The position numbers were made by a program, and so were the translations under genes. A DNA stretch of 41,966 nucleotides, taken from positions 69,745 through 111,710 of the forward strand of contig JAOACS010000010.1 in the NCBI GenBank assembly GCA_026417655.1, given 5' to 3'. The notes beneath the pieces were generated by a model that saw nothing but the letters and a program-made list of their open reading frames with translations, did no database searches and had not been told where the DNA came from. This document shows, one piece after another, positions 34,089 to 35,950 of this stretch (positions are counted from its first letter, which is position 1; each line of letters starts with the position of its first letter). The stretch is from Syntrophobacterales bacterium. GTDB taxonomy: Bacteria > Desulfobacterota > Syntrophobacteria > Syntrophobacterales > Thermodesulforhabdaceae.

Positions 34089-34604
34089 TTAACGATCCCC
34101 CTGGTAAGGATACCAGTCTTCACGGCGAATCCGATCGACATGAACAATTGCTATCTCACTGGTGAAAGTATTGAATACTACCTTACGACCCTTGGTCCCA
34201 CCAACGTCTTCTGCCACAATTGGGATGCCGTAACGTCTTAGAATCTTGCGAGCAATGAATACATTACCTCTAGCTATACTAATATGGTCTTCAGAGGCAT
34301 CAATCGGCGTAGCCCCACCTATAATCTGAGCTTCCAAGTCCTTTATTTCACTACCGTCCTCTCTAAAAAATTTTACAAGAGCTATGGTAGCTACGTTGCC
34401 GTATATAGATCTTGCTTCGAGGGGGTTACCGGTTTCTGGATATAAAAAGTAATTCATTCCACCCCGCTGTCTTTTTCTATCCCAAAGACAGACAGAGATT
34501 CCGCTCCCCAGAACGGTCGATATTAGGGTAGGGACGCTGGGAATATAAATATAGCCTTTTTTTAAAAAATACTCATTTCTCTGAACAGTATGTTGAGAAG
34601 GCAT
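34089..34604 (-). CDS. cheD: CheD-family protein with catalytic residues replaced
   Basis: A 171-residue CheD homologue. Active CheD deamidates glutamines of chemoreceptors, using Cys in a GSC motif and His 17 residues later. Here the motif is [12 protein letters not shown], with Gly35 at the Cys position, and GGMNYFLYP, with Tyr52 at the His position. The fold-defining parts are kept ([36 protein letters not shown] in pieces, [11 protein letters not shown]). The protein is therefore unlikely to deamidate and may act as a binding partner, for example of CheX/CheC or CheB. It lies next to cheB. A second, intact cheD sits 0.9 kb upstream. Translation of the Gly codon (GGA) and Tyr codon was checked by eye. 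Confidence 0.85.
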
Positions 34605-34623
34605 GATAAAATTTCCCTATTTA

Positions 34624-35049
34624 TTAATCTTTGGAGCAAATAGTTACCTCTCCACATTTTTCTCCCAGAATAAACAGGGGGATAGTCCAGCAAAAACTTC
34701 CAATCATTGTTTCACTCGGGTAGCCTATTTGTGGAAGCCCAAGGGAATACTTCCCCTTTGAGGAGCTAACACAGTATCCTCCTATCATATTGGCTAATTC
34801 CTTTAGACAATCTTCCATATCCTCCTGTTTAACCTTCTCTACCACCACACCCATGAAATCAGCCGCTATCTGAAAGGCAACAGCTTCTAAGAGATCTACA
34901 GTTATAACCAACATCGAGTCCTGGCCAGTCAATTTTATATGAGAGACAACCCTTTTTTTATCCTTCCAATTGGATTCTTCATCGGATCCATCAAATTCTA
35001 CTAGGGTGTAAAACATCTTCTCCAATGTATTAGAAATCGCTTCCTTCAT
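34624..35049 (-). CDS. cheX: CheX-like phosphatase
   Basis: CheC/CheX-family phosphatase for CheY-P. About 141 residues from ATG 35049; an ATG at 35067 is also in frame and the ribosome site is poor for either. The family signature E-x2-N is present in CLKELANMIGGYC, preceded by the beta-strand segment SMLVITVDLLEAVAFQIAADFMG in pieces, and followed by GLPQIGYP. There is only one such helix, as in CheX rather than CheC. It overlaps the receiver gene just upstream by about 20 bases, which suggests a pair. With CheZ also present, the operon has two phosphatase types. Confidence 0.82.
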   Translation of the reverse strand: MKEAISNTLEKMFYTLVEFDGSDEESNWKDKKRVVSHIKLTGQDSMLVITVDLLEAVAFQIAADFMGVVVEKVKQEDMEDCLKELANMIGGYCVSSSKGKYSLGLPQIGYPSETMIGSFCWTIPLFILGEKCGEVTICSKD

Positions 35050-35449
35050 CAATTCCGCCCATCGCATAAACTGGCTCCCCCATTATTCCCTTAAGATACT
35101 CCCTGATCTGATCGGGTTCGAAGGGTTTTCTTATGTAGCCCTGAGCACCCATAGACATCGCCTTTTGAAGTTTATTTTCGTCTCCCTCAGTAGTTATCAA
35201 TACTACAGGGATGTCCTTAAATTCTTCTCTTCTTCTTAGTTCACTGAGAAATTGGTAACCATCCATAACCGGCATATGGATATCTGACAATATGATATCT
35301 ACCCACTTAGAGTTCAACACCTTAAGAGCTTCCTCACCGTTAGACGCTTCAAATATCTCTCCAACCTTAAAGCCAGAAATTTGTAAAACCTTCCGAATCA
35401 CCTTCCTCATAGAGTTGGAATCATCCACAATCAAGATATTGTATGCCAT
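35030..35449 (-). CDS. CheY-like response regulator
   Basis: A 139-residue receiver protein: acidic pair D9/D10 (LIVDDSNSMRKVI), phospho-site D56 in DIILSDIHMPVMDG, switch Thr in VVLITTEGDE, and Lys in YIRKPFEPDQ. The C-terminus has a short extra tail (YAMGGIDEGSDF) beyond a usual receiver. It overlaps the cheX start and is preceded by the intact cheD. It may be the substrate of CheX, perhaps acting as a phosphate sink in place of a motor-binding CheY, but that is inference. Confidence 0.92.
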   Translation of the reverse strand: MAYNILIVDDSNSMRKVIRKVLQISGFKVGEIFEASNGEEALKVLNSKWVDIILSDIHMPVMDGYQFLSELRRREEFKDIPVVLITTEGDENKLQKAMSMGAQGYIRKPFEPDQIREYLKGIMGEPVYAMGGIDEGSDF

Positions 35450-35467
35450 AATACCCCACCTTTCGGA

Positions 35468-35950
35468 TTAAAACTCAAATTCTCCTTCTCCTGAAACCTT
35501 AAGGAAACATTTCCCAGATCCTATTTCTAGCCTCATGGTTCTGTTAACACTTCCTCCAACATTTTCGGCGGAGACCCTTACGTTATTGCGCCAGAAAAGT
35601 TTTTTTAGAATCATGTAATTCCGCTTTCCTATATTAAAGACCCCATTCTCATCAAGAATCTGTCCCCCACCAGCTACCTTGACAATCATATTAGTTTTCG
35701 TGGCTCCTAGGCTGTAGCACGATTTAAACAACAAAGGGATCCCTGTATCACCAAACATCGCTGGATTTTTCTTCGCCTTTTCGGGATCTATTGAAGATTC
35801 GGGTAACATATAATGAAGAATACCTCCAACCTTAGCTATGGGATCATATACTGCAACCCCGATACAGGAACCGAGGGAATAGGTTATGAGCACATCATCT
35901 GGCTTATTGCTCACAGCCATATCCCCTACACCTATAACGATCCTTGCCAT
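35468..35950 (-). CDS. cheD: Chemoreceptor glutamine deamidase CheD (intact)
   Basis: Deamidates specific glutamines in chemoreceptors and interacts with CheC/CheX. ATG 35950 is preceded by AAGGA at five bases; an upstream ATG at 36019 lacks support. The 160 residues keep the catalytic Cys29 in LITYSLGSCIGVAVYD and His46 in VGGILHYMLP, plus VKVAGGGQIL and NVRVSAENVGG. Compared with the other CheD in this operon (34089-34604), this copy has all the required residues and is likely the active enzyme. It is encoded between cheR and the cheY/cheX pair. Confidence 0.92.
   Translation of the reverse strand: MARIVIGVGDMAVSNKPDDVLITYSLGSCIGVAVYDPIAKVGGILHYMLPESSIDPEKAKKNPAMFGDTGIPLLFKSCYSLGATKTNMIVKVAGGGQILDENGVFNIGKRNYMILKKLFWRNNVRVSAENVGGSVNRTMRLEIGSGKCFLKVSGEGEFEF

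Follow-up and report, generated by a model that had tools for sequence, protein, structure and literature searches.

Loss of the catalytic residues is old and recurrent in a clade of CheD proteins whose fold and C-terminal R-x-x-DWYPY tail are conserved. A member of this clade, here called tail-CheD, is encoded next to cheB in the window, by which we mean the whole analysed stretch of 41,966 nucleotides. It is a CheD by fold and family, and it is probably not a CheD deamidase: the catalytic Cys of that enzyme is absent (Gly35), and so is the catalytic His (Tyr52).

Operon organization and catalytic positions

The relevant features of the window, all on the minus strand, are the following (Pfam models or other basis in brackets).

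29092-30408, minus strand: CheZ domain protein (CheZ, 141.7 bits)
30411-32582, minus strand: CheA (Hpt, H-kinase_dim, HATPase_c and CheW)
32594-32980, minus strand: second CheY-like receiver protein (Response_reg)
32999-34087, minus strand: CheB (CheB_methylest and Response_reg)
34089-34604, minus strand: tail-CheD, 171 aa, a CheD without the catalytic residues (CheD, 65.9 bits, cut-off 25)
34104-34118, minus strand: DWYPY, residues 163-167 of tail-CheD (R160, D163 and W164 invariant in 59 of 59 alignment rows)
34449-34451, minus strand: Tyr52 codon of tail-CheD, aligned with the catalytic His (sequence; alignment to T. maritima CheD)
34500-34502, minus strand: Gly35 codon of tail-CheD, aligned with the catalytic Cys (sequence; alignment to T. 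maritima CheD)
34624-35067, minus strand: CheX-type phosphatase, immediately 5´ of tail-CheD (CheX, 33.9 bits, cut-off 27)
35030-35449, minus strand: CheY-like receiver protein (Response_reg)
35468-35950, minus strand: CheD1, the intact Cys29/His46 CheD, with its ATG at 35950 (CheD, 97.2 bits)
35813-35815, minus strand: His46 codon of CheD1 (sequence)
35864-35866, minus strand: Cys29 codon of CheD1 (sequence)
36104-36946, minus strand: CheR (CheR)

A single base separates the tail-CheD stop codon from the ATG of the downstream cheB. The alignment of tail-CheD with Thermotoga maritima CheD (2f9z_C) has no gap in the region concerned and places Gly35 on the cysteine of LGSC and Tyr52 on the histidine, which are the catalytic residues of the CheD family. 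The sequence-only reading had set Gly35 and Tyr52 of the cheB-adjacent CheD against Cys29 and His46 of CheD1; the open reading frames and the residues were confirmed, and the spacing is 17 residues in both proteins. The NCBIfam equivalog cut-offs for CheD do not discriminate between the two copies, because the intact CheD1 falls short as well (126 versus 240, compared with 90.6 versus 223 for tail-CheD). A third CheD in the genome is fused to an HDOD domain and has both Cys and His (L132:1-1328, G000:C21). Long open frames similar in size to this CheD-HDOD gene recur in relatives.

Other proteins of the window have features of their own. Residues 276-328 of CheA, in the interval between the Hpt and dimerization domains, match the model of an MshE-related c-di-GMP-binding motif with 35.4 bits, under the cut-off of 38. 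The CheZ protein has approximately 240 additional N-terminal residues, the CheZ model spanning residues 241-438, and positions 25842-28118 encode a 758-aa protein that by eye consists of two tandem phosphofructokinase-like halves.

Loss of Cys and His in the tailed clade

The tail-CheD protein was searched against 59 genomes, 38 of which gave some CheD match, and ten genomes, the window's own included, carry an ortholog-like copy (at least 48% identity). Gly/Tyr at the Cys and His positions is seen in two of the ten, both of the window's genus; in the second of these, G001, tail-CheD is 81% identical. The other three genera of the family are represented by three genomes with Gly/His, one genus of another family of the order by two with Ser/His, and the remaining three genomes have Cys/His. 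Gly at the Cys position is common to all five genomes of the family (four genera), with the reading frame intact in each, and within the family Tyr at the His position is limited to the window's genus. Loss of the Cys thus predates the split of the family's genera, and loss of the His is more recent. Both residues are gone, as had been claimed, but they disappeared in separate steps, since the remaining three genera combine Gly with a retained His. Sequencing error is excluded by Gly/Tyr in G001 and Gly in all five family genomes, and recent decay is rejected, Gly being common to four genera. For the same reason, the existence of Cys/His relatives, which the earlier reading would have taken as a sign of such decay, does not imply it. 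The Gly/Tyr pair is rejected as a conserved signature of CheDs next to cheB: it is confined to both genomes of the window's genus and a far-off genome (L222). All five genomes of the family, and three more of the ten, share the gene order CheD1-CheY-CheX-tail-CheD-CheB-CheY.

The tail-CheD gene is under purifying selection, and across the family its constraint is weaker than that of cheB. We used pN/pS rather than dN/dS because synonymous sites are saturated even inside the genus. Between the window and G001, pN/pS is 0.12 for tail-CheD, 0.11 for CheB, 0.09 for CheD1 and 0.36 for CheX; across the family, the corresponding values are 0.24-0.35, 0.16-0.17, 0.11-0.14 and 0.44-0.60.

Members of the clade are found mainly in Desulfobacterota. 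A scan of the contigs of named genomes with the single tail-CheD protein gave no match, and an alignment-based scan yielded 109 loci, of which 80 further loci were kept. Nearly all are from Desulfobacterota (Thermodesulfobacteriota) or from records titled Deltaproteobacteria, and one is from a Nitrospiraceae MAG. For a tree, four duplicate sequences and one with an in-frame stop were dropped, which left 85 proteins, and the two catalytic columns were taken out of the alignment. The Cys position in these proteins is occupied by Ser (38), Cys (26), Gly (17), Ala (3) or Asn (1), and the His position by His (65), Asn (6), Ser (4), Leu (3), Tyr (2), Gln (2), Arg (2) or Cys (1). Both residues are kept in 20 of the 85; the Cys is missing from 59, the His from 20 and both from 14, and six have kept the Cys and lost the His. 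The tree requires a minimum of 14 changes at the Cys position (Cys versus non-Cys) and 11 at the His position (His versus non-His). These counts do not distinguish losses from regains, and the tree is in part poorly resolved, with 32 of its 82 inner branches open and a bootstrap that had not settled. A correlation between Cys loss and His loss gave no signal (median p 1), with only six independent pairs on well supported branches. The frame is interrupted by a TAG in one tail-CheD (L078/L206).

Conservation of the tail in the 80-locus set is partly built in, because one of the two scan patterns contained DWYPY, and it is best judged from the ortholog set and from a phylum sample in which CheDs were found with a whole-length model. 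For the latter, 395 genomes were drawn evenly, and sequences were read for the 30 best loci and for 40 regions from among the weaker matches listed; G015 (L013, Cys/His) is among the listed matches, outside the 30 rescored. The 30 clade members in this sample, five of which (the window, its genus mate and relatives from the order) also figure in the counts above, have Cys/His (16), Ser/His (4), Ala/His (4), Gly/Tyr (3), Gly/His (2) or Gly/Ser (1). Their tails are DW-x-PY in 20, DYxPY in six and a divergent DW form in three, and in one an in-frame stop precedes the tail. All 46 non-tailed CheDs of the sample are Cys/His, as against 16 of the 30 tailed ones (Fisher p 2e-7, relatedness ignored). 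When the tail columns are excluded and only the core is used, a tree from a quick search on few columns still parts 44 tailed from 46 non-tailed rows by one change (SH-aLRT 93), with the window's tail-CheD among the tailed ones.

CheD1-type copies are Cys/His in 57 of 57 cases at loci L134-L192, which are best-scoring matches and hence biased towards canonical CheDs. At the 80 named loci, such copies are Cys/His in 32 cases and Ser/His in five, and one is cut off. Loss of the Cys is not exclusive to the tailed clade, because five CheD1-like copies near tail-CheDs (L045, L061, L062, L063, L069) carry Ser at this position (TYALGTS). Among 132 plasmid records with distant CheDs, the three examined have Cys and His and no tail. 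Another extreme C-terminal motif, LTLF(E)- or ELF-like, is seen on the non-tailed CheDs L237, L238, L240, L249 and L251, and likewise at L254-L256, L258 and the plasmid loci L272 and L274.

Fold, tail and candidate partners

Tail-CheD passes the curated cut-off of PF03975, and its AlphaFold model is a CheD fold (mean pLDDT 94.0) that matches 2f9z_C with a Z-score of 21.8 over 149 residues. In an alignment of 59 tail-CheD rows, Y12, G33, P56, G69, G96, G97, N114, D133, G136, G139, R140, K141, R160, D163 and W164 are invariant, and the Cys and the His are present in 44% and 75% of the same rows. The column entropies of the Cys and His positions are 1.78 and 1.48 bits, compared with 1.47 bits for the median column. 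Position 93 is Lys in 42 of 46 non-tailed CheDs and Gln in 57 of 59 tail-CheD rows. Compared with the CheD deamidases of T. maritima (2f9z_C) and B. subtilis, tail-CheD is alike in fold, core glycines, Asn and Arg positions and location in a che operon, and it differs in having Gly/Tyr for Cys/His, Gln for K93 and the extra R-x-x-DWYPY tail.

The tail of the window's protein (R-x-x-DW[YF]PY, residues 160-167) is probably at least partly ordered in the models, because the block has a pLDDT of 84 in the window's protein and of 75 in a Desulfonema magnum relative with Cys/His. DWYPY lies directly behind the last strand and is followed by four residues in 67 of 90 tail-CheDs; tail-CheD does not end in a free extreme C-terminal peptide on a flexible linker.

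The neighbourhood was analysed at 60 named tail-CheD loci flanked by 2.5 kb or more on either side, by BLAST with the proteins of the window, so that the counts are lower bounds. A che gene is present on the same strand at at least 34 of the 60 loci, CheB adjoins tail-CheD at at least 17, and CheX is near it at at least five. Linkage to cheB is not general, because at 26 loci no che gene was detected on the same strand; 24 of these are Ser/His. The Ser/His tail-CheDs of Desulfobacterales (L044, L055, L088, L090 and similar) lie away from che genes, in neighbourhoods that are alike. In G209 and G174, a tail-CheD without the Cys comes immediately after an intact CheD, and L271:4053-5070 has the tandem arrangement of intact CheD, Cys-less tail-CheD and CheB.

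Fusions of CheD to a CheB-like receiver, without the methylesterase domain, are encoded beside CheA at L262:2208-3233, L263:2277-3275, L264:2842-3882 and L266:1391-2512, with Pfam confirmation done on L262. Such fusions occur in genomes of one family and, by sequence, in a Bdellovibrio plasmid. In a study of Halobacterium salinarum, CheD was found bound to CheB, and a feedback loop acting on receptor methylation was put forward (PMC3579733). That system is archaeal and includes CheC and CheF, and the passages concerned do not mention loss of catalytic residues. Given the recurring adjacency of CheB, the fusions and the CheB-bound Halobacterium CheD, CheB is a plausible candidate partner of tail-CheD, and CheX is a weakly supported one. 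CheC was rejected as a partner on account of the absence of PF04509 matches at E 0.001 in the window's genome, which is 96% complete; control matches were obtained in 4 of 14 genomes.

The count of PF03975 matches covered the genomes behind 79 of the 80 named loci (49 + 30 genomes, one repeated) and 34 further genomes, some overlapping the named set. At least two CheD matches are present in every genome counted except G107, a draft, and G031, in which the single match is Cys/His. This near-universal second CheD fits either a loss allowed by the other copy or a division of labour.

Function of a CheD without its active site

We consider it rather probable that tail-CheD is a pseudo-deamidase kept for a binding function, and that the job of the clade is independent of Cys and His. 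We infer the inactivity of tail-CheD, its binding partners and its effect on signalling. Deamidation is not expected, because structure titles call Cys-to-Ser forms of related folds (CNF1, BLF1) inactive and because Gly cannot be a nucleophile. Tail-CheD, in which the CheD fold persists, would no longer be able to hydrolyse receptor glutamines, and receptor deamidation would be left to CheD1 and perhaps also to the CheD-HDOD fusion encoded elsewhere in the genome. Tail-CheD would most likely bind receptor signalling domains and/or CheB, the product of the coupled downstream gene, and binding could shift kinase activity or adaptation without chemistry. The earlier suggestion of a dead CheD kept for a regulatory role holds to the extent that a non-catalytic role is the best reading of a gene that is maintained and of losses that are old and recurrent, but the Gly/Tyr pair itself is limited to the genus. 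The 20 of 85 tail-CheDs with Cys/His may be enzymes and count against a non-catalytic function of the clade.

There is some precedent for such logic in B. subtilis. In a study of the CheC/CheD/CheYp system, binding by CheD outweighs its deamidase activity, a point that the authors call a paradox, and a CheD mutant that is active but binds poorly does not support chemotaxis (PMC3513319); its text contains none of the words "catalytic", "cysteine" and "C33". The likeness to tail-CheD is in the proposed logic, by which CheD acts through binding and not through deamidation. B. subtilis CheD keeps its deamidase activity, whereas the window's genome has no CheC match and has CheX. Our literature search, mostly outside subscription papers, turned up no description of the tail or of any CheD that lacks its catalytic residues.

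The repeated losses could alternatively stem from relaxed selection, CheD1 making the activity of tail-CheD redundant and the gene drifting to loss. This would agree with catalytic columns that are as variable as average ones, with the in-frame TAG in L078/L206 and with the presence of another CheD in nearly every such genome, the complete-looking exception G031 keeping Cys/His. Such drift is nevertheless improbable given that the gene stays while losses recur in many lineages, that Gly is found in four genera with the frame intact in five family genomes, that the 59 rows hardly vary in tail and core and that pN/pS is 0.12 inside the genus. The possibility that the protein is still an enzyme, with Ser or with Cys39, four residues on, as nucleophile, or with an altered activity, is more remote. 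Gly, Ala and Asn also replace the Cys (17, 3 and 1 of 85), the His is lost independently, including in six rows with the Cys kept, and Ser forms of related folds are titled inactive. These observations stand against the predominance of Ser among the replacements (38 of 85) and the frequent occurrence in the clade of a Cys at position 39, the consensus of the 59-row alignment; this position is presumably outside the catalytic geometry.

Pseudoenzymes commonly partner with related enzymes, and the dead copy may complex with the intact CheD or compete with it for receptor sites, thereby tuning deamidation. Both CheDs are in one operon across the family, and the intact CheD directly precedes the Cys-less one in G209 and G174. 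We find this doubtful, as tail-CheD is without a detected same-strand che gene at 26 of the 60 named loci. T. maritima CheD is, to our knowledge, not known as a CheD pair; the title of 2f9z has it in a complex with CheC. An equally tentative idea is that tail-CheDs are adaptors, the core docking on receptors without a tether and DWYPY recruiting CheB or CheR; repeated catalytic loss would then be tolerated, as function would be centred on the tail and not on the active site. The docking pentapeptide of receptors follows the loose pattern x-[HFYW]-x-x-[HFYW], which DWYPY matches. A docking-type motif ends two of the genome's nine receptors (GFKDF, DFKDF) and 16 of 31 receptor fragments in relatives. 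The operon CheR aligns with Salmonella CheR without a gap in the beta-subdomain, where Pseudomonas CheR1 is without three residues, and the loop in this subdomain is the one by which CheR binds the pentapeptide. Passages of PMC2577667 include forms related to the pattern. The likeness to the receptor pentapeptide that tethers CheR or CheB (NWETF type; PMC2577667) consists in the fit to the loose pattern, and the receptor peptide is at the end of a long linker, whereas DWYPY is mostly four residues from the end and behind the last strand. The proximity of the tail to the core and its apparent order tell against the adaptor idea.

In conclusion, a clade in which the active site has repeatedly been replaced and the fold and tail have been kept would be evolutionary evidence that a CheD may regulate without any catalysis. 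It offers natural catalytically dead CheDs (Gly/Tyr, Ser/His and Gly/Leu, the latter two in relatives such as those of Desulfospira joergensenii and Desulfobacter latus) with intact sister copies, and the annotation "chemoreceptor glutamine deamidase" may be wrong across the whole tail-CheD clade.
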